Origin: Patiria pectinifera
Taxonomy: Eukaryota; Echinodermata; Asteroidea; Valvatida; Asterinidae
Assembly: GCA_029964075.1 (NCBI GenBank)
Contig: CM057141.1
Span: forward strand, 8,866,001 to 8,930,000
Length of the DNA: 64,000 nucleotides
Direction of reading: 5' to 3'
Shown in pieces: positions 35,623-63,579 of the stretch (position 1 is the first letter of the stretch; each line of letters opens with the position of its first letter). The position numbers were made by a program, and so were the translations under genes. The notes beneath the pieces are model-generated. The model was given only the letters and a program-made list of their open reading frames with translations, was not told where the DNA came from and did no database searches.

Positions 35623-35628
35623 TATAGA

Positions 35629-35790
35629 AGTAGGAGTGGGGGGCGGGTACCAGACTTTACCCCCACAAATAGATCCCCCTCTCCCCCAAATAGATCTCCC
35701 TCTCCCCAATATATATATCTGTCTCGGAATCAGACCAAAACCGGGGCCCAATATCTCTCTCAATATCTCTCTCAGTCTTGCTGTTGTCTC
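35629..35790. repeat. Polinton left terminal inverted repeat
   Basis: Pairs with 49868-50089. Shared text includes GGGTACCAGACTTTACCCC, repeated CCCCCAAATAGATCTCCCTC units, TCTCGGAATCA and CCCAATATCTCTC. The left copy has fewer of the ~20 bp inner units than the right. Confidence 0.9.
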
Positions 35791-35992
35791 TTAACTTTTT
35801 TAAGATGTATTTTTCATTTTTTATCTTTTGTTAAAAAAAATAAATAAATAAATAAATCTGTATAAATACGACTCATACTTCTACTTCAACCTTGACTTGC
35901 AAATATATGAAGTGACTCTTGGTGACACTGTACTTCTGCAGTTTGGGTAAACACCTATTGAAATTCAATGGGCTGTGAATTGTTTTTGTTAG

Positions 35993-36538
35993 TTGCGGCA
36001 GCCTGTATATGACCCAAAATCAAACACTTTCGATCTCAGGCTGTGCTCCGTGGTCATATATGGGTCGATGTGGCCGGCAGCCATAGGCGCCTTTAAGACT
36101 GTTGATCCAAAAGAAATTTATCATGAAATTAAAGAAAATTATAACAGGCAACAGGAAGGTAATGACAGGGTTGTCCCTAGCGTAACTGTATATGCTATGG
36201 GAAGGAGTTTATCTGATTTGGAGGGGTGTGTAAAGTCATGTACTAAAATTTATAACATGTCTGAAAATGGGGCTCTCAGAAATGCAGCTAATATGGGACA
36301 CTGGTTGGAAATATCATTTAAAACCTTTCGGCGGGATAAGAAAAGGGGGAAGGTAATTTCAGCAAACTTCAACACCTGGTTGAAAAACAATTGTAAGATA
36401 AAAAGAACTTGGGCAAAAATTCACAGAGACTTTTACGACCTCACCAAGAAGTACCTGCAATTACTTCACTGTTGCCTACCCTTAACGTTCTTCAGAAAAA
36501 ATAAAATGCATATTGTAAACTATTTTAAAGTAATTTAG
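35993..36538 (+). pseudogene. Polinton-borne ORF of unknown function (~180 codons)
   Basis: An open frame just inside the left TIR. The first in-frame ATG is at 36068; upstream the frame opens after a TTTTTGTTAG tract that could be a splice acceptor. The protein is soluble-looking and rich in K, N and R. The end (FNTWLKNNCKIKRTWAKIHR, then DFYDLTKKYLQLLHC) has a helix-rich WL..N...R....Y..L pattern that I recall from uncharacterised invertebrate and virus-like proteins. I cannot name a domain. A hairpin that looks like a transcript end lies 124 bases downstream. It may be cargo rather than a core Polinton gene. Confidence 0.5.
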
Positions 36539-36661
36539 AAGTAGGATCAAAATGGACACATGCTGTGCTTTGCAACTGTGGCCAGTGTGGGCCTTGAGTA
36601 AAAACCTTTTGATATATGACAAACCAAACAGCTATTTAAATGAATAATTTGAATAACAACG

Positions 36662-36686
36662 AAAAAGCCACTCGGAGTGGCTTTTT
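36662..36686 (+). terminator. Terminator-like perfect hairpin
   Basis: AAAAAGCCACTC, one central G, then GAGTGGCTTTTT: a 12 bp perfect stem ending in a T run, downstream of the 36538 stop. In several large DNA viruses transcript ends fall at such palindromes; for Polintons this is an inference. Confidence 0.45.
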
Positions 36687-36730
36687 ACTGTATATATTAA
36701 AATATATGAATATCAAATAAAGAGAATGTA

Positions 36731-37076
36731 TAAATGATCGTTTTATCGAGTCCAAGTTCAATTATAATAAAATAATAAATAGAGGGCGCTATTCTGGGTG
36801 GTGAGGGATATCAAAAGTTAATATAAACAGAGGGTGGTATAATAAATGATCGATTTATCGAGTCCAAGTGCAATTATAATTTAAAAAAATCAATAGAGGG
36901 CGCCATTCATGGGTGGTGAGGGATATCAATTATAAACAGAGGGCGGTATTTAATTTTTATGATAAGGGATTAATTTACCGATAGAAACAGAGGGCGCTAT
37001 TTATGGGCGCTAAGGGATCTGATATCAATTATAAAAAGATATAGGTGCTGTTCAATAAAAAAACAGAGGGCGGTAT
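36731..37076. promoter_or_regulatory. Row of six AGAGGGCG(C/G)TATT motifs (CTCF-core-like)
   Basis: Motif copies begin at about 36781, 36829, 36894, 36938, 36989 and 37064, four of them preceded by AAC. They sit in longer degenerate units (ATCG.TTTATCGAGTCCAAGT, GGGTGGTGAGGGATATCAA) of about 113 bases. AGRGGGCGSTA fits the core of the CTCF recognition motif (AGRKGGCRSYV). The block lies directly upstream of the zinc-ribbon ORF at 37118, so a promoter, insulator or origin role is possible. The binding is not shown. Confidence 0.6.
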
Positions 37077-37117
37077 TGAAAAAGTGCTATCATTTTTATT
37101 TAAAATTTATTAAATAG

Positions 37118-37375
37118 ATGGAATACTTTGAGACACCGCAACTTGGGGATAAGTGCGGTCACCATATAATCATTGAGAATGGTTTCTTAATTTGTGAAAT
37201 GTGCGGTGAAATAGTCTCACGTTACTTTGATTTTTTGGCAGAAAATGCGCAAGAAGATCGTATCAATTGGTCCATTTTAAAGAGGAATCAAAAGAAAAGC
37301 CTCGATAAACTGATTTTTTTCTGTGTCTCCAGAGCAAGACTCAGAAGACGTCCAAGAAACGATCAATCAATATAA
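37118..37375 (+). pseudogene. TFIIB-like zinc-ribbon protein relic in the Polinton
   Basis: From an ATG, the ORF reads KCGHHIIIENGFLICEMCGE around residues 12-31. The spacing C13-x2-H16 ... C26-x2-C29-G matches the N-terminal zinc ribbon of TFIIB, whose metazoan form also uses C-x2-H for its first pair, and the following acidic/aromatic stretch fits too. TFIIB recruits RNA polymerase II to promoters; many large DNA viruses encode their own version. I do not know it as a core Polinton gene. The gene body beyond the ribbon appears broken. Other Zn-ribbon proteins of the TFIIB/Brf/TFIIS kind are possible alternatives. Confidence 0.6.
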
Positions 37376-37700
37376 CGAGCTCGTTAATTACAAAACATTG
37401 AGGGGAAACGGATGTATTAAACAATCATTAATAGCCGCGTGTTTTCATCATGTAGTTTGATTAGACAAAGAACGAGTTAGATATTTATTTAAAGTGACTT
37501 TATTATCAATTTGATAAAGCACTAAAAAGATACAATGACCACTACAATAAAGGCGGGGCTGAGGGTGACACCCTAAGAGGTGATATAGAGGTGTAACTCG
37601 GTGGATCGCTTTCATACTGTTTATTTACCGAGAATTCGAACTTGTAAGTTTTTCGATAAGAGATTTTTTTCTTTTGTCAGCTGTTCGTCGACCCGTTTTT
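37376..37700. other. Polinton interior between the two gene blocks
   Basis: Decayed sequence between the plus-strand zinc-ribbon relic and the minus-strand gene block. Short coding-like pieces are present, but nothing I can name as a separate gene. Confidence 0.4.
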
Positions 37701-37762
37701 TAACTTCTTTTTCAAAGTCTGAATCGTTTTCAATTTTTTTGAAGCTTTGTGCTGGTCTTTGT

Positions 37763-38128
37763 TCAAATTTTTTGCTTAAGCTTGATAAATTTTGCGAGCT
37801 CTCTCGTAATCAATACAAACTCTTCGTGCGATATATCTCCGTTGTTGATGGCTTGAGACACGTATTCTTCAATCGGGTCGTGCTTTTTCAGCTTGGCGGA
37901 TAATCGCTTAGACGCGATTCTACGCAGAAAATCTACACCAAAAGCGCCTATAAACATTCCTTTTAACACCAATCCAACGGGGGCTGATATAACACCCAAG
38001 AGAGCGGGAATACCGACACCCGCTGCTATAGCCCCCAATCCTTCTAATCCTAGCTCTACGTAATTAATCGTGCCGATTACTCTCTTTATTTTTTTATAAG
38101 TGCGCTCTCGGTGGTCTCTCTCTTTCAA
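37763..38128 (-). pseudogene. Polinton small membrane-type protein relic
   Basis: A 121-residue frame with a basic N-terminus, then a long Gly/Ala/Ile/Val-rich hydrophobic segment (GLGAIAAGVGIPALLGVISA, then PVGLVLKGMFIGAFG, residues ~29-64) and a charged C-terminal part rich in K and E. Hydrophobic glycine-rich segments of this kind occur in small virion proteins of Polintons and related viruses. Function unknown; a membrane-active minor virion protein is one possibility. Confidence 0.5.
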
Positions 38129-38278
38129 GATTAAAGATCGAATCTCTTAAATCTTTTTAAGTCTGTACACTTTTGTTTCTTCGTTACTATTTAATCGGAG
38201 TACATAGATCTCCAGAAATATCGGGGTATAATACCTTATTATCTATACTCATGTTTTTAATATAAAAAGATTTTAAAA

Positions 38279-38824
38279 TTAAAAGATCTCCAACTCTATC
38301 ATTATACTCACACCCTTGTTGTTGATGATCTGTCCTTTTTCACCTATGATTGAAAATGTCAGTTTGTCGATTATACCGTTTTTAAGTTTTTTGAAACCCT
38401 CGACTCTATCAGGCTCGGGTTCGCGCTTACCCACGGGTACGATTTTTAAGATGTCAGACGGTCGACCATCGAGGACATTTTCACTCGTACTTAATTGCGG
38501 GCAGCGAATAAACAAAAATTTAAACAGATTAATATTGTAAGACCCCGTATACACCACTTTGGGTACCAGTCTTCCCTTGGGTAAATTGAGTAATCGAGAA
38601 ACTTCTCTGTTCAAACGCAATTTGAGTTTCACGTCGGTTACCACCAACGTCACCTTTTTAGATTCTCTTAATATTCAAAAACTTACCCCGGGTATAGAAT
38701 TTAAAATGAAATCGAACCAATCGACGTCGTACCACCCCGGTGGTATGGTGACCGAACTGGTGACTTCGGCTAGTAAGGGCACTAAATGACTCGGAGAAAT
38801 AAAATCTAAATCATCACCCGACAT
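38279..38824 (-). pseudogene. Penton-like minor capsid protein relic (Polinton)
   Basis: The minus-strand gene starts with an ATG at 38824 (SGDDLDFISPSHLV), continues through TIPPGWYDVDWFDFIL, and in the distal part has LDGRPSDILKIVPVG, then IIDKLTFSIIGEKGQIINNK and a closing IMIELEIF. The PPG.Y....I opening and the (L)TF.I.D..G..I...G..V.I.L.I ending are the pattern I associate with the Polinton penton-like single jelly-roll capsid protein, which occupies the virion vertices. It neighbours MCP and ATPase, as expected. It is broken. Confidence 0.6.
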
Positions 38825-38829
38825 GATAA

Positions 38830-39042
38830 GACTTCCCCGTATTGTTATCCGATTCTCTAATTGTTCTCACCCTAGGTTTGCTTATTCTACCTTCGATATA
38901 TTCTAGCGCTATCTTTTTACCTTCAGAGATTTGATGGCATCTTTCATATAAATTTCTTAATAAAAATATAAGCGTATTGCGTTCTACACTGTTTAGGGTA
39001 GCTACTCGTTTTTTTTATTGTACACAAGTTCATGTGCGTCAC
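38830..39042. other. Polinton spacer, no gene recognised
   Basis: A short A+T-rich stretch between the penton-like relic and the next minus-strand frame. No motif recognised. Confidence 0.4.
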
Positions 39043-39342
39043 TTATTTGATTTGTTTTTCCTGGATCGATTCTAAAGCAGAGTCTAGTCTGTCTTCTTCG
39101 TATGCTTCTATAAGGTCGTTTATAACTCTATTGAAATCATTTTCGTTGTTAATTAAAAAGTGGTAGGGGTACTCGGGTACCAATCGCGCAATAAAATCTC
39201 TATCCATTCTTATTACCGCATCTGGGTCGAGTTCACTGGGTCTTATAGAGTCATCACGTCTTTTAGCTGGTTGTCCGTCTATTTGCGTATACCAATCAAT
39301 CTCCGTGGAGCTGGAAATATTAAAATATCCAGGGTTAAACAT
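39043..39342 (-). pseudogene. Polinton hypothetical protein (99 codons)
   Basis: An acidic frame with IRPSELDPDAVIRMDRDFIA and YPYHFLINNENDFNRVINDL, predicted mostly helical at the C-terminal end. I do not recognise it. Its position between the penton-like relic and the ATPase block suggests a virion or assembly protein, but that is position-based inference. Confidence 0.45.
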
Positions 39343-39472
39343 CAGCCTTTTTACGTGTACACATTTTTGACCGTTTAATTATCTACAACGTCTTCTAATT
39401 TAAAAGTCTGCTCATTTTGAAACAAGTGAACGAATGCATTTATTTAAAAGTCTTTTTATATTAAAACTGAAA

Positions 39473-39691
39473 CTAAAATAATGAGTGATTTTGAGTCGTT
39501 AAAAAAGCAGTTTCGTACAGATGATACAATTTGTCGAGTTCTTTACTGTCAAGAGCTTCGATATGTTTAAGGGTGTATTCCTTTCCCAAGTACTTTCTAG
39601 AGTTTCCGGCTGCTACGACACTGCACAAACGATCTTTATGTTCTGTGTTGTGATCTTGTTCGTTCATTAAAGCAAGTTTTAGGTCCTCCAT
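39473..39691 (-). pseudogene. Polinton hypothetical protein (72 codons)
   Basis: The frame opens MEDLKLALMNEQDHNTEHKD, then LGKEYTLKHIEALDSKELDK and LYHLYETAF. The Y.L..I..L...EL..LY..YE pattern is known to me from small uncharacterised Polinton ORFs next to the capsid and ATPase genes. It is short, helical and charged; function unknown. Confidence 0.5.
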
Positions 39692-39937
39692 CTAATTAGA
39701 AACGAATTTTATTTTGTTGTAGCTTTTGCAACTTTGTTACAAAAGCGAAGGTATTCGTATGTGTAAAACGATAGATTAAGCGATATGATGATAATAGCCA
39801 AAACTGCAAATACTCGAATATTGCTATCATTTACTAACAGCAAAATGTATTTTGTTGACGTTTATTGAATAGGTTGCTGATTTTTGTTGATTAGCAAATT
39901 TTAATACCTGTGTAGCATGTTGAGTAGGTTGCTACTC
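39692..39937. other. Polinton spacer
   Basis: A+T-rich. No gene recognised. Confidence 0.4.
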
Positions 39938-40038
39938 ACCTAGCTTATTTTACTTGAGCAGCTAGCTTATTTTAACTTGAGCAACTAGCTTATATAACTT
40001 GAGCAGCTAGCTTATTTAACTTGAGCAGCTCGGTTATT
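39938..40038. repeat. ~24 bp tandem repeat within the Polinton
   Basis: About four and a half copies of AACTTGAGCAGCTAGCTTAT with a variable T run between them. It lies just beyond the 3' end of the ATPase relic. Confidence 0.85.
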
Positions 40039-40041
40039 TAC

Positions 40042-40647
40042 CTACTCCAATAGCTCGTAACTAACTGGAGGTTCGGTGTATACGACCAATTTACTATATT
40101 TCACATTTCTCAAACGTCGTTTTATATAATCTCGTTCTGCAATCGGTACAACATCATTTTCGTCTAACGCTTGATCAAAAGATGTTTTATCTTTGCAGTA
40201 AAATAATGCCAACCAAGCCGTATTTTCTCTATAATCTTTTAAAACGCTATTGTTGTTTTTTGAGTAAGTAACCAACAGCTGTGATTTACGTGTCTTCTGC
40301 TAAACGCCATCTTGCTTAAAGCGCACGTCTTTTTACGATATTTAATCTCTTGATCCGAAGAGCAATCGTCTACGATAGGTGGTAGCAACACCTTTGAGTT
40401 CTTTCCTGTAAATATCGATCGCTTCGTTGAGCGTCATCTTGTACAATTCCGGATCGCAGAGGTATAGCTCGGGATCTGCGTGAACCCACTTTCTTTCGAT
40501 GTACGTTTTATTTTTAAAAACGGTAGGGCAAATGATGACTATCGCTTCAAATACGTTTTTATAATCTGACTCTAACAGACCCAAAATCCATTTGGTTTTA
40601 CCTGAATTTGTTTTGCCGACGATTAAAGCGCAATGCGGTTGTGTCAT
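40042..40647 (-). pseudogene. Polinton packaging ATPase relic (FtsK/HerA type)
   Basis: The gene opens with MTQPHCALIVGKTNSGKTKW; GKTNSGKT is the Walker A loop. It continues with FEAIVIICPTVFKNKTY, the strand-and-proline pattern (IVI.CPT...N.TY..R.W) of Polinton/adeno-like packaging ATPases. Its distal piece contains LKDYRENTAWLALFYCKDKT, then DENDVVPIAERDYIKRRLRN and KYSKLVVYTEPP, the usual end of the family. The product would drive DNA into the capsid. It overlaps or abuts the MCP start region downstream of the capsid gene. The copy is broken. Confidence 0.8.
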
Positions 40648-40653
40648 TTTAAC

Positions 40654-41914
40654 TTAACAGAGATTTAAAATTACCGTCTTCCAAGTTCAATTGAGCATCC
40701 ATGATTAAAAATACGTACATCGTGAGGTCACCTTGACTTTCGGCTTCTCTGTTAAATTGAACGTTGATGCCTCCTCCGTCTCCAAGTTTCCTACCGGATC
40801 CGTGAGCGGAATTGTCGTCGTTACTTCTAAAATCGAGCCACAGACCGTACTTGTTTTTTAGATGATCTCCGAGGTCACAACCTGTTGAATTTAAGTCTTT
40901 GGATACTCCTCGTCCGCTTTTGGTATCACTGTCTCCAAAGAACTTGATAATTTCGTTCCAGTGTTAATACTGAAACATGCCTTGACTGTAGAGTTGATTG
41001 GGGTTACCTTCTACCGTCACCGATGTTTTGGTTAATTTTGGATTATAAAATCGCTGTGGATTTTTGTCCGTGGGATCTTTAAACAAAAACAAAATACCCT
41101 TGAGACTCCTGATGGGTTGATTGACGCTGACGTTCCAAAGCGTGTCCGATTTGTTGACGGATCTAACTTCTAGCGAGTGGATTTTATCAAACAGGTATTG
41201 CATTAAAACCTGGTGTTTATTCCTGATGGTGATAGCCAGGTCTCTGTTAGTCACCACTTCGTATTCAAGAGTCAAGTCTGAGATACAATACATCGCCGCC
41301 GTATCTGAGCTGTTGACTACTTATTTCGTGATCGTTAAACTTTATCTCGTACGTCAGAGGTTGTTTTAAACTGCTTGGGTAAAAAGGGTGATGCGAAGTC
41401 AGTATGTCAATGTCTAGGGGAATACAATATCTGTTACCATAAGCATCCGCGATAGCTTGATCTTTACCGTTGTTGGCGCCTGCGTTAGCATCTTGAGCCC
41501 CCGTTCTTAGTTTAGACACGTTTTCATTTTCTATGCCCGAGTACGCCATGTTTCGAGTTGTCGAGCTGTTGAGCCAATTGTCTTTAAAGTTGTGATACAC
41601 GTCGGCGTGACGATAACTCACGATTTCGTGACCTTGAAGTCTGACGCTATTTCGCTGACTAAATTTCTAGCCAAATTGCCAAAAATGGTTCTATTGTTGT
41701 CGCTTCCACCTTCGAGTTCTAAATTGAAAGCTAGTTTACAAGTGCCGGATACGATCACGTCGTCTACACCCAATTGAGGAAACTTGACCCTCAGCATTTG
41801 CCCCTCCGATATACTACTGGGATTGTGGGTAATGACCACCTCTTTTCTCTCACCCTTGATAGATCTGGGTACTTTTAATAGTCTGCGGGGGTTGAGTTTT
41901 TTTTCCGTACGCAT
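40654..41914 (-). pseudogene. Polinton major capsid protein relic (double jelly-roll)
   Basis: Three successive pieces on the minus strand carry the family's landmarks. Near the start are VVITHNPSSISEGQMLRVKF and PQLGVDDVIVSGTCKLAFNL. In the middle are YHNFKDNWLNSSTTRNMAYS and IPLDIDILTSHHPFYP, then LTYEIKFNDHEI. In the last third are LTLEYEVVTNRDLAITIRNK and a final LIMDAQLN-type strand before the stop. The order and the N.ST..G..L.V.FP.L...D.I..GT.KL.F pattern are those of Polinton MCP, the capsomer protein of the predicted virion. It is broken by several changes. Confidence 0.85.
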
Positions 41915-41940
41915 TCATTTTATTTATAAGAGTTTTAAAT

Positions 41941-42363
41941 TTAAAGGTATCTGTAAGCTAAGAAGCCCACCAACAGCGTTCCTCCCGCGATAAACGCGAG
42001 TTCTTTTTCTATTTGTTGGTCGCTAGGCTCGTAAAAATCTTTGAGTTTGGGTTCGCGTTGCAGTCCTACGGGTAGTTCGGTAGATTGTCCACTCACTTCG
42101 TTGTAGTAACGCAACGCTCGGTCTACGTCGGAAAATGTTTCTTTAGAAGCTTTTTGTTTTCTGATACGTTCGTTAAGAAAATGTAGATATTTCGTTCGTT
42201 CTCGTTGCCACCGATCTTTGGCGGCCAAGAGTTATTCTATCCCTAAGTCGTGTCTCTTACGCTACTCGTCGCTCTGTTTCAGATTTGAAAATAAAAAGTT
42301 TGAACCCGTAAAAGCTAAGGCGTTGACGATCGCGCCTCCTATCATCATAGCAACTCTAGCCAT
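41941..42363 (-). pseudogene. Polinton conserved small protein with terminal membrane segments
   Basis: The gene begins MARVAMMIGGAIVNALAFTG at 42363 and ends with EKELAFIAGGTLLVGFLAYR near 41941. Between them is a charged helical part (KYLHFLNERIRKQKASKE, DVDRALRYYNEVSG, KLKDFYEPSDQQ). GGA.VNALAF.GSN..FS, then D...RHD, ending in a C-terminal hydrophobic helix, is a recurring small Polinton protein of unknown role encoded immediately upstream of MCP. It may be membrane- or virion-associated. It is broken. Confidence 0.65.
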
Positions 42364-42386
42364 ATTATTATAAACGTCTTTTATAA

Positions 42387-42551
42387 GGGAATAAATGTGT
42401 GCTCCAGAAGTTTTTATCACTCTGTTTAATACCACTTAGAGTCTGGGTGCTGATAATTACCCGAGCCAGAGGCGAGGGTAATTATCAGCACCCAGACTCT
42501 AAGTGGTCTTAAACAGAGTGATAAATACCGACGGAGCACATATTTATTCCC
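42387..42551. repeat. 165 bp near-perfect hairpin upstream of two divergent Polinton genes
   Basis: Arms GGGAATAAATGTGTGCTCC / GGAGCACATATTTATTCCC at the base and GGGTGCTGATAATTACCC / GGGTAATTATCAGCACCC near the tip, with about 80 bases per arm and a tip of GAGCCAGAGGCGA. It lies between the minus-strand gene starting at 42363 and the promoter-like block before the integrase. It could be a hairpin MITE inserted in the Polinton, or a native structured element. Confidence 0.85.
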
Positions 42552-42805
42552 ATTCATAAATACCTTTTCGGTAACAAAAAATCCTATAATTCGTTCAGAA
42601 CATCCCGATTTTGTTCAACAAATTCACTTTATGCTTTTTGAAACATCCCTCCTGCAAAATAATGGAGTGTTCAGCTGGCGAGTAAGATGTAAACAACCCT
42701 TTTATGGAGATTGACGCGCGCGTATCATGTTCTACGCGATGTCGCGCAGAACGCACCTGGCGCGTTGGGTTTTGAATTTAGAACTATAAAATTCTAACTC
42801 CCTGG

Positions 42806-43021
42806 TAGTGTTGCGCATGCCTACGTGAGGATTGTGAACGTTCAACCAATGAAACGATAAGAGGCACTGGATTTTTAGGAGTCCACATTTTATTGTGACA
42901 CCGGAAAAGTGTTTAAGACCAGCTAGCCATGTCTTTATCATCCGTTTAAGACTGGCCACGTGATGGGCTCTCGACCAATAGGAATGCGTAAACTGTCTTA
43001 GGTATTTATGAATATTAAATA
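42806..43021 (+). promoter_or_regulatory. Promoter-like block upstream of the Polinton integrase
   Basis: A 216 bp block that ends directly before the integrase ATG (43024). Contains TTGCGCATGCC (NRF1-like), CCAAT in GTTCAACCAATGAAACG and GACCAATAGG, and CACGTG. A separate copy occurs at 28836-29047, and most of it is duplicated at 44750-44921. The combination suggests a bidirectional or host-type promoter. A repeat that merely inserted here is the alternative. Confidence 0.6.
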
Positions 43022-43954
43022 ATATGAAAACATTATCTAAACTGTATTATAGCCCGAGCGGTTATTGGAAAGGTGAAAGCGCCGTCGACCATTTACACGA
43101 TAAAACCAAAATCGATAAAAAGGTAATCCGAGATTGGCTTAAAAAACAAGCAATTTGGCAAATTTATCTACCGGGTCCCACGTATGTACCCAGGCCTACG
43201 AGTACTTCGCGAGAGTTTGAAACACCAAACGACTTTCACCAAATGGATGTGCTATACCTACCCTGGGATAAAGTAAAACGCAAGACTTATAGATACGCTT
43301 TGACGGTTGTTGACATTGCGAGTCGATACCACGAAGCAGAACCTTTGGTTTCTAAAATGGCGGATTCCACCCGAGATGCTATCATCAAGATTTACGCGAG
43401 TCTCCTTTGCGTTACCCTAAAACGTTGAGAGTAGACGCCGGTACCGAATTTAAAGGCGCTTTTAAACAATTGATGACCATAAAAAACGTCGAGATTATCG
43501 TAGGTGAACCCGGAAACCACCGATCGCAGGGTATCGTAGAAAGATTTAATCGAACGCTAGCCGAGAGACTGTTTGGTCATCAATACGCTCAAGAAATGTT
43601 AAATCCCGAGAGTAGAAACATGCAATGTGTCGAGTGATTACCCGGCGTGATCAAGGCTATAAATGACGAAACGACAAGATTATTAGCTAAAGCGCCGTCA
43701 CAGGCGGTTAAACTAGAACAGGTCCGGCAATCGCCGGCTAACCCCGTTAAAACAAAAGAGCAGAATTTACCGCAAGATGCTATGGTTAGATATTTATATT
43801 GCCCGGGTGAGCAAGAGGGGGGTACTTCGAGAAGAGCCACGGATCCCATTTGGAGCGTAGACATCTTCAACGTTGAAAAAAGAATGAGTTAATTTAAAAT
43901 GGTTAACGGAAAAAAAGTGACGACGGGCCCCACGCTGTATTACCTGCAAGACGG
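42851..43954. repeat. Duplicated block A, copy 1
   Basis: 1104 bp, identical as far as I can read to 44750-45853 (offset 1899). It spans the distal promoter-like block and most of the integrase relic. Its left boundary lies inside GAAACGATAAG and its right boundary after CTGCAAGACGG. Confidence 0.9.
43024..43954 (+). pseudogene. Polinton integrase relic, copy 1
   Basis: Begins with an ATG (MKTLSKLYYSPSGYWKGESA). Recognised by the retroviral-type integrase core: NDFHQMDVLYLP with the first Asp, LRVDAGTEFKG with the second, and RSQGIVERFNRTLAERL with the Glu. The segment AMVRYLYCPGE belongs to the C-terminal part. The family's integrase joins the element's TIR ends to a 6 bp-staggered target. 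This copy ends at the block A/B junction. It is a broken fossil and is identical in protein text to copy 2. Confidence 0.8.
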
Positions 43955-44749
43955 ATCGTGAAGATCGTCTGGGTATTCTAAATCTACTTCAAAGCAATAA
44001 CCGGTGTTTGACGTTTTCCTGAGAGATAATATCTTGGACTCGGTAAACGTTTTTGTAGACGCCCATTTAAAGTCTTTGTAAGGCAGGTATTGACTCATGG
44101 CCCAGCCGTACAGATTGTTTGCATCAAGGTAGGTAATGTAACTCGACGGCTCGTTTGGATTATGGTCGGGTAGGTATTTGTTGTTGGCTTTGTGGTATCT
44201 CATACCACCCATGCTCGAGATACCACCTCTTTTTGCCTTTTCAAAAAATAAATGTTTGTCTAGGTCGGTCAACAACTCGAGTTTAACTTCCTAGTGTTTT
44301 AACAAGGCATCCCACGACAATCCTGGTGCTGTGTAGTAATTAGCTGGATCTAACGCGTAGTTTGTAATACACGTTTGCCTAAAGTTTTCAAATACACAAG
44401 CCAGTAATAACGTATCGGTAGTGACGTACAAATCGTGATATTCCCCCAAGTTTTTGACGTTAAACTCATTCCACGTCAGTTTAGCTCTGTCGTAGTCCTC
44501 TCGCGATATATTTTTGTCTTTTAGGCTGCCGTAAAATTGTTCGATGGGGGGTAGGCTGGTCTCTGAAATCTGTCAAACGAGTCCATGTATTCACATGGAT
44601 AAACTCCTTTTTGAAACAACGAGTCGATGTTTTGGCGATTAAAATGTTCTCTGAGTAGTTTAAACGACTCTCTTGGACAAGCTTTAGATTATCTATCCAA
44701 CGAAGACGCCATAAAATTAAATGAGTCTATAAATCGCATATTTCCAATC
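43955..44749. repeat. Duplicated block B, copy 1 (PolB segment)
   Basis: 795 bp matching 46955-47750 with a handful of single-base differences. It carries the PolB region with YLDANNLYGWAMSQYLP on the minus strand. Its right end (TTTCCAATC) runs straight into block A copy 2. Confidence 0.9.
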
Positions 44750-45853
44750 GAAACGATAAGAGGCACTGGATTTTTAGGAGTCCACATTTTATTGTGACAC
44801 CGGAAAAGTGTTTAAGACCAGCTAGCCATGTCTTTATCATCCGTTTAAGACTGGCCACGTGATGGGCTCTCGACCAATAGGAATGCGTAAACTGTCTTAG
44901 GTATTTATGAATATTAAATAATATGAAAACATTATCTAAACTGTATTATAGCCCGAGCGGTTATTGGAAAGGTGAAAGCGCCGTCGACCATTTACACGAT
45001 AAAACCAAAATCGATAAAAAGGTAATCCGAGATTGGCTTAAAAAACAAGCAATTTGGCAAATTTATCTACCGGGTCCCACGTATGTACCCAGGCCTACGA
45101 GTACTTCGCGAGAGTTTGAAACACCAAACGACTTTCACCAAATGGATGTGCTATACCTACCCTGGGATAAAGTAAAACGCAAGACTTATAGATACGCTTT
45201 GACGGTTGTTGACATTGCGAGTCGATACCACGAAGCAGAACCTTTGGTTTCTAAAATGGCGGATTCCACCCGAGATGCTATCATCAAGATTTACGCGAGT
45301 CTCCTTTGCGTTACCCTAAAACGTTGAGAGTAGACGCCGGTACCGAATTTAAAGGCGCTTTTAAACAATTGATGACCATAAAAAACGTCGAGATTATCGT
45401 AGGTGAACCCGGAAACCACCGATCGCAGGGTATCGTAGAAAGATTTAATCGAACGCTAGCCGAGAGACTGTTTGGTCATCAATACGCTCAAGAAATGTTA
45501 AATCCCGAGAGTAGAAACATGCAATGTGTCGAGTGATTACCCGGCGTGATCAAGGCTATAAATGACGAAACGACAAGATTATTAGCTAAAGCGCCGTCAC
45601 AGGCGGTTAAACTAGAACAGGTCCGGCAATCGCCGGCTAACCCCGTTAAAACAAAAGAGCAGAATTTACCGCAAGATGCTATGGTTAGATATTTATATTG
45701 CCCGGGTGAGCAAGAGGGGGGTACTTCGAGAAGAGCCACGGATCCCATTTGGAGCGTAGACATCTTCAACGTTGAAAAAAGAATGAGTTAATTTAAAATG
45801 GTTAACGGAAAAAAAGTGACGACGGGCCCCACGCTGTATTACCTGCAAGACGG
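44750..45853. repeat. Duplicated block A, copy 2
   Basis: Matches 42851-43954 along 1104 bp. On its right it continues into unique sequence carrying the integrase C-terminus and the PolB C-terminus, so this copy sits in the expected gene order. Confidence 0.9.
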
Positions 45854-45911
45854 CCCCAAAAGGAGTTTTGTTAGACAAGAGCTTCAAGTTGTATCCGAGG
45901 ACGCGCAATAA
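44923..45911 (+). pseudogene. Polinton integrase relic, copy 2
   Basis: Same core landmarks as copy 1 (QMDVLY, RVDAGTEF, GIVERFNRT). Unlike copy 1 it runs on to the family's usual end (TLYYLQDG, then KRSFVRQELQVV) and a stop at 45909-45911. The PolB relic on the opposite strand ends within a few bases of this stop, a tight convergent arrangement that is normal for this part of Polintons. Broken. Confidence 0.8.
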
Positions 45912-48900
45912 CCGCCGTAGTGACCAACCAAAAGCCAGCGTGTTTATACTGTCCGGTAAAATGTACCTCTTTGTGTCCAACAGACTCAACAATAGTTTAT
46001 TTTGAGATACGGTGTAAAGGATATGATTTTCTGACCTAATGTGAGTCATGGTTTTGTAATGAGATTTCTTGTTTAAGATGCAGTGGTAATAGTGTCGGTG
46101 TTTTAATTTCTTAGAGGTGACCGATTTTGTGACACCCTTGGCTTTTTTCAGGTTGATGTCAGCGGTTAAAATCGAGTTCATTTTAGGTCTTATACAACTC
46201 GTCTTTAAATTTACCGATCACTTTCTTATTGGTTGGGTCGTACAAAGGATGATCCGTCGGATAATTCGAAGGTCGTATTGTTGCCCGTTTTGCTGCATAT
46301 CTTTGTAGACATCGTCAGTGTAGACGCTTAAGAGTAAACTGTCCGTGTCCGTATACAGTAATCTGACTCGGTCTCCATACGTCGCTTTCATTCGATTAAT
46401 CGTACATCAGCATCTTTGAGAGATCCAAGATACTCACTCCCCAGTAGATAGGTTTGTTTAACATAGTTTTAGTCTTGTACTTTTTGACAAATGACAATTT
46501 GCATTCTGGAAATGACGTTGTTGTTTTGTAGCTCGTTTTTTTTGTATAATTTTTTCGTATTTATCTTGATCGTCATCGTTACTGTCTCTGAGTAGGTAAC
46601 CGTCAATACTGTTTCTGACGTTTTCCATCGTCTTACCAAACACGCTGTTATTCATCAGTTTAAAAAAGTCTTTTGTTCTAAGTTGCGTGTTTTTATCTAT
46701 GTAAGATGCCATCCAAGGCGCTTGTTTAAATTGCAGCACTCGATGCACCTTTTTCAGTTTCAAGCCGAGTTTGAGATACAACTGCAACGTGACATAGTGC
46801 AAAACATATTTTTGTTTAGGATTAAGGGTACACGTTAATTTTTGCACGTTGCTATTAGGTTCGGTATCTAATAACTCGTTTTGATAATCAGACATCCATT
46901 CTTTAGGTACCGTATGACTATGTTTTCCGGCGCTAGGGGATAATCGTTGTGTAGATCGTGAAGATCGTCTGGGTATTCTAAATCTACTTCAAAGCAATAA
47001 CCGGTGTTTGACGTTTTCCTGAGAGATAATATCTTGGACTCGGTAAACGTTTTTGTAGACGCCCATTTAAAGTCTTTGTAAGGCAGGTATTGACTCATGG
47101 CCCAGCCGTACAGATTGTTTGCATCAAGGTAGGTAATGTAACTCGACGGCTCGTTTGGATTATGGTCGGGTAGGTATTTGTTGTTGGCTTTGTGGTATCT
47201 CATACCACCCATGCTCGAGATACCACCTCTTTTTGCCTTTTCAAAAAATAAATGTTTGTCTAGGTCGGTCAACAACTCGAGTTTAACTTCCTAGTGTTTT
47301 AACAAGGCATCCCACGACAATCCTGGTGCTGTGTAGTAATTAGCTGGATCTAACGCGTAGTTTGTAATACACGTTTGCCTAAAGTTTTCAAATACACAAG
47401 CCAGTAATAACGTATTGGTAGTGACGTACAAATCGTGATATTCCCCCAAGTTTTTGACGTTAAACTCATTCCACGTCAGTTTAGCTCTGTCGTAGTCCTC
47501 TCGCGATATATTTTCGTCTTTTAGGCTACCGTAAAATTGTTCGATGGGGGGTAGGCTGGTCTCTTGAAATCTGTCAAACGAGTCCATGTATTCACATGGA
47601 TAAACTCCTTTTTGAAACAACGAGTCGATGTTTTGGCGATTAAAATGTTCTCTGAGTAGTTTAAACGACTCTCTTGGACAAGCTTTAGATTATCTATCCA
47701 ACGAAGACGCCATAAAATTAAATGAGTCTATAAATCGCATATTTCCAATCGAAAACGAAATATACTTTTCCGAATTTTTAGCGATAACTTGTATTTCCTT
47801 TTCGTCATCGTACTCTGAAATACTCTGCATGATCAAGTGAGCGTCGTAATTTTGCAGATTGGGAAAGACGACCGGTATGGAAGTAAAACCTGGTTCAACT
47901 TGTAATTTTAGATTGCAGTAGGCGTGCGCGGCACCTCTATATCTACCCGTGACGTGGCAGTGATCTCTCACCTTTCTAAATTTGTCGATTTTCTTTTTGC
48001 ATTCGAGACATTTAGACTCGATAAATCCATTTTTGTTTTCGTACTGATGTTCTTTCATTTGTTTTTCTGTTTTTGTTTTTTTTTGGTTTCTGGCACTGAC
48101 AGTTGCTCGAGTAATTGGGATAAATTGGTTTCTCACAAATCCAACACATGTTTGTTTTATCATGATGTTCTTTAGCTCGCTCGTTACATTTCATGGGTTG
48201 GGCTTTTAAATATGCAATTTATGTCGCTTTGTATTTTTAACATTTTATTTACAAACTTTGATGCAGCATCTTTACCTCTATAAGTCTCTTGATACGCATT
48301 GGTGCCATCACATCTAACTACTACCAACGAGTAACCGCTTGCTTTGTGAATGGTTGTCTTTTGCGTGTTGTCCTTTTTATTGTCCGAGTTTTTTTCTAAT
48401 ATCGATTCAAAGTCGGCGTAAACTACAAACGGTGCTTTTTGTTTAAACGTGTAGTTTTTAAATTCTAATATTGGCACATCGTTTTCGTCGACTATCCACT
48501 CGTTATTTACATATTTTCGCTTAGCGGTAGGAAATACAATCTTTGACGGATGTGTATCTATACCATTACAATCGGTCATGTGTCTATCTAATTTTACTTG
48601 CGTTCTATAATGACTCCGGCACCTTCGACAAAAATATTTCTTACTTTTATCTTTTGTAACGTTGTGAATCAATCGCGAAAAATTATTTATCCAGCAGTAG
48701 TGATGCTTGTCGCCCTCAGGAAACAAAAACAGATCGATTGGTCATGACTCTGCTTTGTAGTTTTTAGACACGTATAATGGATATATTTCCCCATCATAAC
48801 CGTATACGTTTATCGTTAAATTATTTTGTCTTTCTATCTTTGGAATCTGGTCGATCGGTGTTGGAAAGTCTACGCCTTTAAATTCGAGTCCGTCATCTTT

Positions 48901-49748
48901 GGTGTATACAACTGGTTTTTCTTTATGAATTTTATATTTAGGATCGTTTTCATTTTTTATTTTATCAGTGTACAAGCCAAGAGCCGCTCTCAAACACCGT
49001 CTCAAACACTCGTCGTCTTTGTTTTTAATGTTTATCATCGCCGTTTTCTGTTTGATACATTTTGGTAGGTCTATGTAAGAACTACCCCTCACGGGATTAA
49101 ACCTGTTGAATGTACAACGCCATTATCTTTTTTAAAACCCAACCCGATCCTTGATTCGTATACCTTTCATCCTTTCTAAATAGCTGGTCGATGTCTTCTT
49201 TTAAAACAGGTCTGTTTTATTTGACTTTGATTTAAAACGACTCTCTTATCAGTAAAATGTGTAGCTTCGATCATTTCGATCGTACCATCCGGTTTGGTTT
49301 TTTTGTATTTTATTTTTATTGCGAGCTCTACTTTTAAACCTCTTAGCTCTCTCAATTCTGACTTGATTTTATTTACAATTTGATCTTTATGCGTATCAAA
49401 AAATCTGACTCAATCGTCGTTAAAAAGTCTAGGAATTAGTTCCCAGTTTTTAAAGTTGTTTCTAAATTTCCTCGTTGCTCTAAACTCAGTCTCTTGAAAA
49501 TCCTCGGGTTGCCTAGAGTTTTGAATCGCCGAGAGTAAATCTTTTTCCAAAAATCTACCATTATAACCCGACGGGTTATATTCTAGATCGTAATCGTCTA
49601 CAATCTGTTTGAGCTCATGTAGTGTCTTTTTCCTCAAGTTTTTAAATTGAGCTTTGTAGTTTTTTATCCCATTGATGTAGATTTTACACGTAATAGCAAC
49701 ATTTTGATTGTACGGTATATTATATCGCTGGACGTAATCGCGCAGCAT
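45912..49748 (-). pseudogene. Polinton protein-primed family B DNA polymerase relic
   Basis: Landmarks on the minus strand from right to left: an N-terminal part (INIKNKDDECLRRCLRAALG, IPKIERQNNLTINVYGYDGE), a C2H2-like finger (YFCRRCRSHYRTQVKLDRHM), exonuclease motif I (FVVYADFESILE), a Cys/His cluster (VRDHCHVTGRYRGAAHAYCN) with NLQNYDAHLIM, exonuclease III-like EYHDLYV, polymerase motif A (YLDANNLYGWAMSQYLP) and motif B (FFKLMNNSVFGKTMENV). The C-terminus (YHCILNKKSHYKTM, KRYILPDSINTLAFG) follows. The enzyme would copy the element by protein priming at its TIRs. The relic is split by several breaks. One internal segment is also present as block B copy 1. Confidence 0.88.
46955..47750. repeat. 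Duplicated block B, copy 2
   Basis: In its expected context within PolB; partner of 43955-44749 at an offset of 3000. The few differences I can read are one single-base length change and three or four substitutions. Confidence 0.9.
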
Positions 49749-49867
49749 GGCTTTATTTCATCTAGACAATCCCTTAACAATTGGCCTGATTGTATTCATC
49801 ATTTATTTGTATATCAATATAATTTTTTAAATTTTTTAAGAGGTCAGACTTTTGGATTTATAAGCAA

Positions 49868-50089
49868 TTAGACACATCGGCCAGTGAGAGAGAGATCTTC
49901 AATACGAGAGATATTGGGCCCGGTTTTGGCTTGATTCCGAGACTGAGATATTGGGAGAGGAGGGATATATTGGGAGGGAGATATATTTGGAGAGAGGGAG
50001 ATATATTCGGGGGAGGGGGAGATCTATTTGGGGGAGAGGGGGATCTATTTGGGAGGGGTAAAGTCTGGTACCCACCCCCCACTCCTACT
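49868..50089. repeat. Polinton right terminal inverted repeat
   Basis: Reverse complement of the left TIR, longer because the inner purine-rich unit (GGGGGAGATCTATTTGGGGG) is repeated more often. Variation in unit number between the two ends is the main difference visible. Confidence 0.9.
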
Positions 50090-50094
50090 ATAGA

Positions 50095-59458: not shown

Positions 59459-60477
59459 CATAGACCCTGCTGGACTGCTTTGGCAAAGATAAACAGCCCC
59501 GCCGGAGCACTCCTCGTAACTTTCACTATGTGAACTTCAGCCGACACTCGCCAGCCGAGCGCCAAGCCTAGCCACGCACGTAAACAGCACATACAGCCAT
59601 ACGCTCTGTGCAGTGCACCGTACATGACGCGTGCCATAGTACTACACGAGTACACCCGTCCCGTGCCACAGAGTGTGGGATTGGAAGTGCGGCGCATTGA
59701 TATGCTGGTGAAAAGCTGGTAAGCTGACAAGACCATCGTATGACGTGCTTTGAGTCTGATCCCCGCATGTGAATGTTGAGTTCCTGCAGAAGAGGAAGGA
59801 TCCCAGACCGCCTCTCCAGTGATGTGACATAGGCCAAGATGCAACATTGATAGACTGGCCCACACCGCTGTTCTACACAGTCATACATACGAAAATTGAC
59901 TGGAATCCAGACGGACAGCCGAGCACCACAACACCTATCCGATAAACTTTTGGCACCAAATTTGGACCTGTACTTGCGAGTCCGAGCCGGCAAAGCCGCG
60001 TACGAGCCGAGTGGAGAGACCGAGAGTTTCGTCCCTTTCAACAGAAAACACGAAGTGGAGAGACCACGGCACCACGCAAGTGCAAACAAGAAAGACGTAC
60101 AACGGACAACCGCAATAACGGAACTGGTGAACGTCAAACACGTACATCAAAACGCTGGAAATCACGCAAACAAACAGTACATGATGACCAGGAGACCACC
60201 GCGCTACACTAGACATGTACAGTGAACAATTCAACAGCTGAACGGTACTACAGACAACAGTTGAACATTTGGACAGTTCTGCAGAAATATTATATCCTTG
60301 CCGAATATCATTGTTCAAGTTGTTCTGTTAAATGTTACATGTACATTTAATTACCTGCTGATATACATAATGATATCTTACTGTTGTTAACAGTTTATGT
60401 TGTGTTCTTAAAGACTACAATAGTTTTTATGCAAATTGAACCGATACCTGAAGGGTAACCAAGTCAAACTGGGGGAA
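59459..60477 (+). other. Gypsy 5' untranslated leader
   Basis: About 1 kb between the primer-binding site and gag. Overlapping frames occur on both strands but none resembles a known product. Confidence 0.5.
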
Positions 60478-63400
60478 ATGTCAGGTATAACACCACCCCA
60501 TATGGACTGGGATGCAGCAGATCAATCTACTGCATTTAATAAATTCAAGGCCTACTGTGAGCTTGTGTTTCAAGGCCCCCTGTCCAAAAAGTCTGAACCC
60601 GAACGTGTCAATTACCTACTAATATGGTTGGGTCAAGCAGGTATTGACATCTTCAATACATGGAAAATTGAAGATCGGAAAGTCATAATGACTAAATTCG
60701 AGAAACATTTTGAACCAAAGTCGAATTTCCGACTGAATCGCTTCAATTTGCAAAAGTTCAAGCAAACCGAAAATGAATCGGTGGATGAATATATGACAAG
60801 ATGCAAAATACAAGCTAAGCGTTGCAAATTCAGCACTGCTGAGTGTGAAGAGAGACTCATCGAGCAATTAGTCATAGGCACTAAGATTAAGAAAATCCAA
60901 GAGATCTTGCTTGCAAAAGATGATTCACTCACTCTCGACCAAGCGATGGACTTGGCACGAACCAAAGAAGCTACCCTGCAACACATGCAAGAGCTACAGC
61001 AAAGCGAAAAAGTGAATGTTGATACAATGCGATACAAAAGCAAAAGAGCACCACCGCGACCACAAGCAGCTAACTGCGGCAAATGCGGTCTGCAGCATAC
61101 GAAAGCAAAATGCCCTGCACACGGCAGTACGTGTAGGTCCTGCAGCAAAGCCAACCATTGGCAGAGCGTATGCAGATTTCGCAAGCAAACACAGGACAAA
61201 CGAACATATGGTACGCGTCCAAAATCCCGAAGTAGGAGTAGGGGTAGGCAGAAATTCACACAAAGCAAAAATGTCAGTACAGTCAATCAAGGTGATGAAC
61301 CTCAGATCCAAGATGTGTTAGACCAACTCAGTTTTGAGTCTATAAAGATAAATCATATTGGTCACACCAACACTAAACAAGATGAAGCTTATGCAGTACT
61401 AGACATAAAGCTAGATGACAAACCTAATCCTGCTACACTCAAAGTAAAAGTCGACTCTGGTGCCCAAGGTAACATCTTGCCACTCCGCATATTCCGTAGA
61501 ATGTACCCAAGGAAACTTGAAAGCACAGGTTTTCCAAAACAAGACAAAAGTACAAAACAGAAAACGGTACTCACGGCATACAATGGGACAACAATCCCAC
61601 ACTATGGTACAATGAAAATACCATGCGGACACAAAGAGAAAAATGAGAATACAGAATTCTACATTGCAGATGTTCAAGGTCCTGCCATACTGGGCCTACC
61701 ATCATGCCTCGAGTTGAAAGTTGTTTCACTCAATTGCAGCATTCAAGAGACACAGACACAGTCATTGACAAAGGTCAACACAAAACAAGACCTACAGCGA
61801 CTGTATCCAGATAGATTTGAAGGTATTGGCAACTTCGACGGAGAGTACCATATTGTGGTTAACCCAGAAATTCCACCTGTTGCCCATGCGGCCAGAAGAT
61901 GCCCTGTCCAAATTAAAGATGACATAAAGAAAGAATTGGATGACATGATCAAGTTAGGGGTAATAACACCCGTAACTGAACCTACAGATTGGTTTTCAAA
62001 CTTGGCATACTCACAGAAACCAAACGGTAGATGGCGCGTCTGTCTAGATCCAAAAGACTTAAACGCAGCTATAAAGCGCAGCCACCACCACACTCCCACA
62101 TTAGAGGAGGTCACATACAAGTTTGCTGGAAGTACAATCTTCTCCAAACTTGATGCCAGACATGGTTATTGGTCAGTTTCCCTTGATCAAGAATCGAGCA
62201 TGCTCACGACATTCAACAGTCCCTTTGGAAGATTTCGCTTCACTAGGCTTCCCTTTGGGCTATGTGTCAGTCAAGACATATTTCAACAGAAGATGGACCA
62301 AATCCTAGAGAAGTGTCCAGGCACAGTCGGTATAGCAGACAATGTTGGAGTATTTGGCAAGACCGAGTCGGAGCATGATGAAAACCTACACAACCTAATG
62401 AAGGTTGCACGAGAACATGGCCTTGTCTTCAACCTAGACAAGTGCGAGATCAAGAAACCACAGATCAAATTCTTCGGCATTGTCTACAGTGCTAAAGGAG
62501 CACAACCAGACCCAGAAAAAATGAAGTCCATCGAGTCTATCACACCGCCGAAGAATACAAAGGAATTACAACAGTTCCTTGGCATTGCCACATACATGGC
62601 CCCATTCATACCCAACTTGTCGACACTTTCTTCTCCCTTAAGAGAGCTGATGAAGCAAGATCGTGAATACGATTGGCTACTAGTACATCAAATGTCATTT
62701 GACAACATCAAGAAGGCCATTTGTGAAGAAGTCACTCTGGCATACTTCGACCCGAGGAAAGAAACCGTCCTACAAGTTGATGCCTCATTGAAAGGTCTCG
62801 GAGCAGCACTAATGCAAGACTCCAAACCAATCTGCTTCGCATCCAAAGCGCTGACCGATACAGAGCAAAGATATGCCAACATTGAACGTGAGATGCTAGC
62901 CATAGTATATGCTTGCGAAAAATTCCACACATACGCATATGGCCAACCATTCACTGTCCAATCAGATCACAAACCCCTAGAAATGATCCACATCAAAAAC
63001 CTCAACGCAGCACCACCAAGACTGCAAAGACTTCTACTAAGAATCCAAGGGTACGATGTGAAGATCAAATACAAGCCAGGCAAAGAAATGCTACTGGCAG
63101 ACGCAATGTCATGTCTCCATCCACTACCGGGAGCACCGGTAGAGACAGAAGAAATACGAGTACACCATGTTCAATTCTCTGATCAAAAGGTGTCCCAGCT
63201 GCAAGAAGCAACAAATGCTGATGCAGAACTCGCAGCCCTTCGCGAGATCATACAGAATGGATGGCCAGACAACCGACAGATGATTCCCAAACCACTAGGG
63301 AAATACTGGGCATATCGGGACGAGCTGTCTATTGAGAGTGGGCTCATAATGAAAGGCCAGAGGATCGTCATCCCCAAAGTAGAAAGACAAAACACCCTCA

Positions 63401-63579
63401 ACACCATACATGAAGCCCACCAAGGCATAATCAAATCCCAGCTCAGAGCAAAGACATGTGTCTTTTGGCACAACATCAATGATGACATTGAAGAGATGAC
63501 AAGGTCGTGTGACATATGTCAATCCCATGGCAAATCACAACCATCAGAACCTATGAAACCACATGTCTTACCAAACTGA
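60478..63579 (+). CDS. Gypsy gag-pol open frame
   Basis: The first in-frame ATG (MSGITPPHMDWDAADQSTAF) is at 60478; codons upstream to 60436 lack an ATG. Gag helical part covers about residues 1-190. Cys-rich knuckles CGKCGLQHTKAKC and CRSCSKANHWQSVC lie at about 61075-61175. Aspartic protease VDSGAQGNILPL is near 61450, RT with PNGRWRVCLDPKDLN near 62020 and FGRFRFTRLPFGLCVSQDIF near 62230, and RNase H with LQVDASLKGLGAAL near 62775 and SDHKPLEMI near 62965. The integrase zinc-binding part (HEAHQGIIKSQLRAKTCVFW, CDICQ) lies near 63410-63520. Gag and pol share one frame. The product would package and reverse-transcribe the element RNA and integrate the cDNA. As part of an old element the frame is not whole. 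Confidence 0.9.
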   Translation: MSGITPPHMDWDAADQSTAFNKFKAYCELVFQGPLSKKSEPERVNYLLIWLGQAGIDIFNTWKIEDRKVIMTKFEKHFEPKSNFRLNRFNLQKFKQTENESVDEYMTRCKIQAKRCKFSTAECEERLIEQLVIGTKIKKIQEILLAKDDSLTLDQAMDLARTKEATLQHMQELQQSEKVNVDTMRYKSKRAPPRPQAANCGKCGLQHTKAKCPAHGSTCRSCSKANHWQSVCRFRKQTQDKRTYGTRPKSRSRSRGRQKFTQSKNVSTVNQGDEPQIQDVLDQLSFESIKINHIGHTNTKQDEAYAVLDIKLDDKPNPATLKVKVDSGAQGNILPLRIFRRMYPRKLESTGFPKQDKSTKQKTVLTAYNGTTIPHYGTMKIPCGHKEKNENTEFYIADVQGPAILGLPSCLELKVVSLNCSIQETQTQSLTKVNTKQDLQRLYPDRFEGIGNFDGEYHIVVNPEIPPVAHAARRCPVQIKDDIKKELDDMIKLGVITPVTEPTDWFSNLAYSQKPNGRWRVCLDPKDLNAAIKRSHHHTPTLEEVTYKFAGSTIFSKLDARHGYWSVSLDQESSMLTTFNSPFGRFRFTRLPFGLCVSQDIFQQKMDQILEKCPGTVGIADNVGVFGKTESEHDENLHNLMKVAREHGLVFNLDKCEIKKPQIKFFGIVYSAKGAQPDPEKMKSIESITPPKNTKELQQFLGIATYMAPFIPNLSTLSSPLRELMKQDREYDWLLVHQMSFDNIKKAICEEVTLAYFDPRKETVLQVDASLKGLGAALMQDSKPICFASKALTDTEQRYANIEREMLAIVYACEKFHTYAYGQPFTVQSDHKPLEMIHIKNLNAAPPRLQRLLLRIQGYDVKIKYKPGKEMLLADAMSCLHPLPGAPVETEEIRVHHVQFSDQKVSQLQEATNADAELAALREIIQNGWPDNRQMIPKPLGKYWAYRDELSIESGLIMKGQRIVIPKVERQNTLNTIHEAHQGIIKSQLRAKTCVFWHNINDDIEEMTRSCDICQSHGKSQPSEPMKPHVLPN

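Follow-up and report, generated by a model that had tools for sequence, protein, structure and literature searches.

The window analysed here, a 64-kb stretch of DNA taken as a whole, lies on contig 13 of a genome of 613.5 Mb in 1020 contigs. At 37118–37375 on the + strand it contains an open reading frame (ORF) of 85 codons with an ATG start, and the motif C-x2-H...C-x2-C-G ascribed to it in a preliminary description of the sequence is present at 37154–37207 (+) as a zinc ribbon of the form C-x2-H-x9-C-x2-C-G. A motif of this C-x2-H/C-x2-C-G type, with 7–14 residues between H and C, was found only once among the window open frames of at least 60 aa, and it appeared in one of 100 Markov resamples of the window (mean 0.01). 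The ORF is real, but it is not a whole gene: about the first 67 codons are in the frame used by its relatives, after which the frame is lost and the remainder is out of frame. By comparison with the relatives, the gene continues in another frame at 37314–37457 (+), where a cyclin-repeat-like sequence leads to a stop. A longer gene, standard in a high-copy Polinton family, thus stands here in a frame-broken copy, of which the 37118–37375 ORF makes up the front half. The two halves of the window gene were handled as separate pieces throughout, and the 37314–37457 continuation on its own gave no Pfam match.

The element that carries this gene occupies 35629–50089; inverted repeats of about 120–175 bp form its ends, and ATAGA lies on either side. 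The left terminal inverted repeat (35629–35748) starts with AGTAGGAGTGGGGGG and is preceded by ATAGA at 35624–35628, which was read off the sequence; the right terminal inverted repeat (49916–50089) is followed by ATAGA at 50090–50094. The flank duplication of this element is 5 bp, whereas the target-site duplication of Polintons is usually 6 bp. Since the terminal repeats are so short, the ORF does not lie inside the left one, where it had been placed previously, but about 1.4 kb inward of it.

The genes of the window's element are fragments, shorter than their counterparts in relatives. After the zinc-ribbon gene comes a convergent neighbour (37763–38128, −), which measures 216–218 aa in six of eight long loci, and then a further gene (38279–38653, −) that reaches 393 aa in another copy. 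At 39509/39510 about 3.6 kb is missing from the window copy; six of the eight long loci carry this stretch and resume their match to the window beyond it. Of the other two, L148 contains a large ORF unlike the element and L151 contains parts of the extra genes of the 3.6-kb stretch, both with no further match to the window. The element is 14.5 kb long in the window; copies that retain the 3.6 kb would probably measure about 18 kb. Its remaining part contains a fragment of an A32-type packaging ATPase recognised with Pfam (40342–40647, −), two fragments (40964–41621, −) corresponding to a 422-aa ORF of another copy, by position a putative capsid-type gene, a fragment of an rve integrase (43024–43428, +) with a second, duplicated copy at 44923–45327 (+), and a broken, partly duplicated PolB-like gene (43940–49748, −).

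Relatives of the window copy were used for the assignment of these genes. In relative copies, the Pfam matches to rve (E 3.9e-11) and Pox_A32 (E 1.4e-9) are over the cut-off, while the window ATPase fragment gave a Pox_A32-type match with E 0.0056, under the cut-off. The PolB-like gene has open frames as long as about 1319 aa at the paired places described below, but no Pfam PolB match. NNLYGWAM and NNSVFGKTMEN, present in window ORFs, and YTDTDS, present in the PolB-like gene of other copies, are sequences that we take to be PolB motifs. The 422-aa ORF adjoins the ATPase and matched only phrog_28965, of unknown function (E 0.027), with no Pfam match and no PDB sequence match. Since the terminal inverted repeats come together with integrase and ATPase ORFs that pass the Pfam cut-offs in relatives, Polinton is the right name for the element, in agreement with the preliminary description. 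A search of IMG/VR with the protein family, a PolB piece and the integrase confirmed no relative.

Some additional features were observed in the course of this annotation. Exact duplications are found within the element at 42851–45049 and 43954–47754, with spacings of 1.9 kb and 3.0 kb; the duplicated stretches are 100% identical over the reported 190–300 bp, indicating that the duplications are recent or an assembly effect. The N-terminal part of the PolB-like ORF includes an endonuclease VII-like stretch (L155:3664-6522 (-), L156:4164-6488 (-)), with Pfam E-values of 0.00039 and 0.00055, under the cut-off, and a PHROG E-value of 6e-5. Elsewhere in the window, a 1047-aa open frame at 60436–63579 (+) is, by eye, of the retrotransposon pol type.

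Searching the genome with the 85-aa ORF returned at least 150 copies, as the best 150 of 835 candidates were scored and all of them match; because the last residues of the query are out of frame, the ranking favours copies with the same break. Fifty loci were read, 20 of them hand-picked from the 150-copy genome list, mainly for long open frames. An ORF of at least 157 aa was present in 21 of the 50, a frame break of the window's kind in 17, and another 12 were broken otherwise. The intact protein is about 157–163 aa long and consists of the ribbon, a linker and a helical-looking half, with helices assigned by eye. The copies fall into two subfamilies, the MEYF type and the MTFFQ type, which differ in their first residues and in their upstream DNA. 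The linker frame break common to 17 of the 50 loci (L004-L053) occurs in eight of one subfamily and nine of the other, with a query that favours such copies, and it may be a repeated slip or a broken lineage that spread in trans.

The gene is also found at a fixed place. Recurrence in independent copies at one position, to which the preliminary description had looked for support, was observed: 43 of 49 loci retain 100 bp or more of the convergent neighbour gene, and 46 of 49 retain DNA of some downstream gene, the window's own locus being left out of both counts. In the stretches of about 10 kb, the neighbour gene DNA is present in all eight, with an ORF of 162–218 aa in seven; the genome list for this neighbour holds the best 150 of 978 candidates. 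Three copies traced rightward all contain ATPase-region DNA, with a 201-aa ORF in two, and integrase DNA, with a 333-aa ORF in two, and PolB-like ORFs are present in all three. On the scale of the genome, at least 50 of the best 150 gene copies have a PolB-like match on the opposite strand 7–18 kb further ahead, with 28 pairs at about 11 kb, against two pairs on the same strand, two behind and 0–3 with six shifted position sets. This comparison, with positions in whole kb, took the best 150 of 835 gene copies and the best 150 of 636 PolB-like candidates, and the count of 50 is a lower bound because both lists contain the best 150 only.

Selective constraint was estimated from the 153 pairs formed by 18 intact copies, all equally long. 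With pN of 0.018 and pS of 0.093, the pooled pN/pS is 0.20, a value that is indicative since the choice of intact copies favours low pN, and it is alike in the two halves of the protein (0.21 and 0.19). Variable positions number 31 of 146 at the third codon position, 16 at the first and nine at the second. That the window copy is frame-broken and its element full of broken genes would suit a chance ORF within decayed repeat DNA, but such an origin is refuted by the at least 150 scored copies, the ORFs of at least 157 aa in the loci read and the pN/pS. From the copy number, these long ORFs, the PolB pairing and the constraint, it is near certain that this is a real, conserved and regular gene of one Polinton family.

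The copies are not evenly distributed. Contig C7, which accounts for 44.85 of the 613.5 Mb, holds 72 of the best 150 gene copies, 69 of them in its first 24 Mb, and 65 of the best 150 PolB-like matches, 64 of them in the same 24 Mb. This strong pile-up of Polinton copies on a portion of a single chromosome might be as expected of a sex chromosome or a low-recombination region. Elements of Polinton type whose long open PolB frames match Pfam DNA_pol_B_2 were also seen, for example at C21:39717308, C16:11423257 and C6:1517500. None of these PF03175-positive places was found by eye among the best 150 of 636 PolB-like matches listed, and they look like other Polinton families.

Upstream of the ORF, the motif-rich block noted earlier is indeed present and consists of five AGAGGGCGSTATT-type motifs at 36781–37077 (+), one with a single mismatch; elsewhere in the window there are none, with 0.07 expected. 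The motif core appears to resemble a CTCF site. On the same strand, the 8-base core lies upstream in 24 of 26 MEYF-type loci versus none of 24 MTFFQ-type loci; on the other strand a single match was seen in four of the 24 MTFFQ-type loci, and the MEYF-type L019 has an extra lone match. In 11 long loci, motif clusters occur only before the zinc-ribbon gene and only in MEYF-type copies; two of these loci each have a single 7-base match elsewhere. The motif block was therefore discarded as an element-wide promoter, and the proposal that this Polinton lineage has transcription control of its own is weakened at the level of the family, the block belonging to one of two subfamilies and to one gene.

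The hairpin that had been called terminator-like was also located. Its unit spans 36627–36710 (+), has a stem of 11 pairs at 36662–36686 and folds as RNA at z −5.3; the hairpin itself is real, but terminator-like patterns in the region (1) are not above the shuffle mean (1.7). Ten of the 50 loci, every one of the MEYF type, contain its core, 1–9 times and about 83 bp apart where repeated. The strong hairpin of the window unit is also seen in L013, L044 and L051, and in MEYF-type elements its core recurs up to nine times. Rather than a family-wide promoter, the motif block and the hairpin seem to be DNA with a regulatory or structural role in one subfamily.

Regarding the protein, an open frame with the C-x2-[CH]...C-x2-C-G pattern exists in all 50 loci searched, and C13, H16, C26, C29 and G30 are invariant in the 46 aligned copies, four of the 50 loci having been left out with ORFs of less than 75 aa. 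The preliminary description had recognised a TFIIB-like ribbon. In its favour, the only Pfam match of the window ORF is the TFIIB ribbon (PF08271), and other copies carry a second half that resembles a cyclin repeat, but the match (E 0.091, 12.8 bits against a 29-bit cut-off) is below the threshold. No profile match of the protein reached a curated cut-off. Over the 46 copies, all Pfam matches are weak: a ZHX finger in 13 (best E 0.0024), HTH_23 in nine, two unrelated families in five each, the TFIIB ribbon in two (best E 0.03) and an ORC6 cyclin-like domain in one (E 0.098). In PHROGs, the ribbon best matches a family with no known function (E 0.0072), and the candidates from PHROGs and NCBIfam, weak and either of unknown function or ribosomal L33, were rejected.

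A better match to an unrelated zinc finger had been named as the result that would speak against TFIIB, and here the outcome is mixed. The ZHX matches, which outnumber those to the TFIIB ribbon, would make the protein an ordinary C2H2-type zinc finger of the ZHX kind. In the copy that was tabulated, however, this match reaches 12.6 bits versus a 27-bit cut-off, and the matched residues 23–66 hold no histidine, while the invariant columns of the 46 copies are C13, H16, C26 and C29. Since the matched stretch has no histidines in that copy, a C2H2 finger is highly improbable and close to refuted.

More direct comparisons were made with TFIIB-type ribbons. Scored with an archaeal and viral TFB ribbon profile, the median copy was equalled by none of 3000 shuffles; the TFB profiles were built from 79 archaeal and 20 viral TFBs, one of 80 and one of 21 loci, respectively, having failed the ORF filter. 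In local alignments with the ribbon stretches of the host GTF2B, BRF1 and BRF2, 0, 1 and 1 of 1000 shuffles scored as high. Such scores are loose, as shown by a false pairing of the ribbon half with the BRF1 repeat exon, for which only nine of 1000 shuffles were as high. Alignment by hhalign gave low probabilities, 41% for the ribbon and 13% for the full TFB. The AlphaFold model of the window's 67 residues has three strands at modest confidence (pLDDT 59), and Foldseek with this model returned nothing at E ≤ 0.001, listing mixed zinc ribbons at E > 1. Among the structures listed are initiation complexes that contain TFIIB. Part of this evidence would be expected of any zinc ribbon.

Other searches were less productive. 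A PDB profile search with the family found no TFIIB, and its top matches, oxidoreductase and ribonuclease J stretches, were not credible. The Pfam TFIIB models run against the genome at E 0.001 and at E 10 gave no Polinton copies among the 17 candidates scored each time; PF00382 matches on contig C2 were TRIM-like ORFs by eye, and the one on C5 is a BRF2-like gene.

The second half of the protein, as it stands in other copies (YNELV...TLRG...LIAAC...KERVRDVFKV), aligns with cyclin repeat 1 of TFIIB/TFB. Against TFB repeat 1, the median copy is equalled in 53 of 3000 residue shuffles, versus 488 of 3000 against repeat 2 and 133 of 3000 against both repeats stacked, and when the ribbon and the second half were compared with the full TFB profile, this fell to four of 3000. 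Profile alignment to repeat 1, with two of 15 alignment rows left out of the column-shuffle test, gave a probability of 1%, with 8 of 200 column shuffles as high, and the profile–profile probability for the repeats does not exceed 1%. For the host repeat exons, the shuffles as high were 40 of 1000 with GTF2B repeat 1, 113 of 1000 with BRF1 and 296 of 1000 with BRF2; the TFB line of this comparison took 25 of the 99 TFBs. For 80 of the 99 TFBs, the repeat-1 region is where the best local match begins (over the TFBs, median z 2.1, top z 6.0), and the top matches have Y...V..k.LRG, AAC and KVT in register. A reversed-sequence control gave a top score of 54 vs 55 and a median of 36 vs 39. The copies have no PF00382 match, and the protein has room for one repeat. 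An AlphaFold model of the window's 48-residue second-half piece was a single long helix and was set aside as uninformative. The likeness to TFIIB repeat 1 is marginal against shuffles, no better at its maximum than the reversed control, and suggestive at most; since the copies carry a second, helical-looking half, the TFIIB reading appears to fit better than the ORF alone showed.

Taking both halves together, we lean, by a little, towards descent of the gene from TFIIB, which would make its product a cut-down factor with a Cys3-His ribbon and one cyclin-like repeat. A zinc-ribbon regulator of other descent, in which a generic ribbon is joined to an HTH-like or helical domain and the protein would bind DNA or polymerase and so switch element genes, is possible though rather unlikely. 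No TFIIB match reaches the cut-off; HTH_23 was matched in nine of the 46 copies (best E 0.051; residues 102–149 in the tabulated copy); and zinc ribbons are common to many transcription and ribosomal proteins, a mixture such as Foldseek gave. Those HTH matches are, however, as weak as the TFIIB ones, and the order of the ribbon followed by Y...V..k.LRG...AAC...FKVT, at near the spacing of TFIIB repeat 1, speaks for TFIIB descent.

In TFIIB, the ribbon docks on RNA polymerase II and the cyclin repeats contact TBP or DNA. If the Polinton protein is such a factor, its ribbon would dock on the host RNA polymerase II, its single cyclin-like repeat would contact TBP or DNA, and the element's own promoters would be favoured during expression of the element in the nucleus; here we infer all the binding partners and promoter effects. 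For the full reading, in which a one-repeat TFIIB encoded by the Polinton family itself would direct host RNA polymerase II to element promoters, we estimate a tentative probability of about 0.35. Among the Pfam matches of the ORFs scanned, no RNA polymerase gene was recognised for this virus-like element of less than 20 kb.

The same descent would also allow a TFIIB-like decoy, which would compete with host TFIIB at RNA polymerase II and damp host transcription. A single repeat and a short ribbon loop would suit a truncated competitor, and the one repeated motif that was searched for is not spread over the other genes of the element. On the other side stands archaeal TFB3, a truncated TFB paralogue with a ribbon and a reduced core that acts beside the normal factor. 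The title of Paytubi and White (2009), listed among the references of PMC3062615, calls it a general activator, which leans towards activation over competition, and we consider a decoy improbable. TFB3 is cellular and archaeal, and its likeness to the Polinton protein would lie in the reduced domain make-up.

If the steering of host RNA polymerase II by a one-repeat TFIIB is correct, a transcription-initiation factor would be carried by a virus-like element of less than 20 kb with no recognised RNA polymerase gene, so that small nuclear virus-like elements, like giant viruses, could carry part of their own initiation machinery. A TFIIB-like gene in a Polinton would give a handle on Polinton expression, and a natural one-repeat TFIIB could serve to dissect which parts of the factor are required. 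In the literature found by a non-exhaustive search on Polinton/Maverick elements, adintoviruses and virophages, the available parts of the sources name no TFIIB-like Polinton gene, and the main texts of PMC11071308, PMC4028283 and PMC8097293 have no words starting with 'transcription'.

Compared with known systems, the element shares with Polinton/Maverick the terminal inverted repeats, the rve integrase, the A32-type ATPase and the PolB-like gene, to which a TFIIB-like zinc-ribbon gene is added 1.4 kb inward of the left repeat. The core genes of vertebrate Polintons are int, ppolb, atp, pro, the major and minor cp, pz and pw; as given in the available part of the source, this list has no named zinc-ribbon or TFIIB-like gene, and it includes pz and pw as genes whose function is not known (PMC8097293). 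Giant viruses (Nucleocytoviricota) likewise have a virus-side TFIIB: in the available part of the BEREN description, TFIIB is a marker gene of these viruses together with RNA polymerase subunits (PMC12638062), whereas among the Pfam matches of the Polinton ORFs scanned there were no RNA polymerase subunits. With TFIIB and archaeal TFB (PF08271 + PF00382), the Polinton protein shares the N-terminal C-x2-[HC]..C-x2-C-G ribbon and a second half whose LRG and AAC motifs fall into the register of cyclin repeat 1. It differs from them in staying under the Pfam cut-offs, in having one such repeat instead of two within its 157–163 or so residues, and in a ribbon loop, from H to C, of nine residues versus 15 in the genome's own GTF2B.
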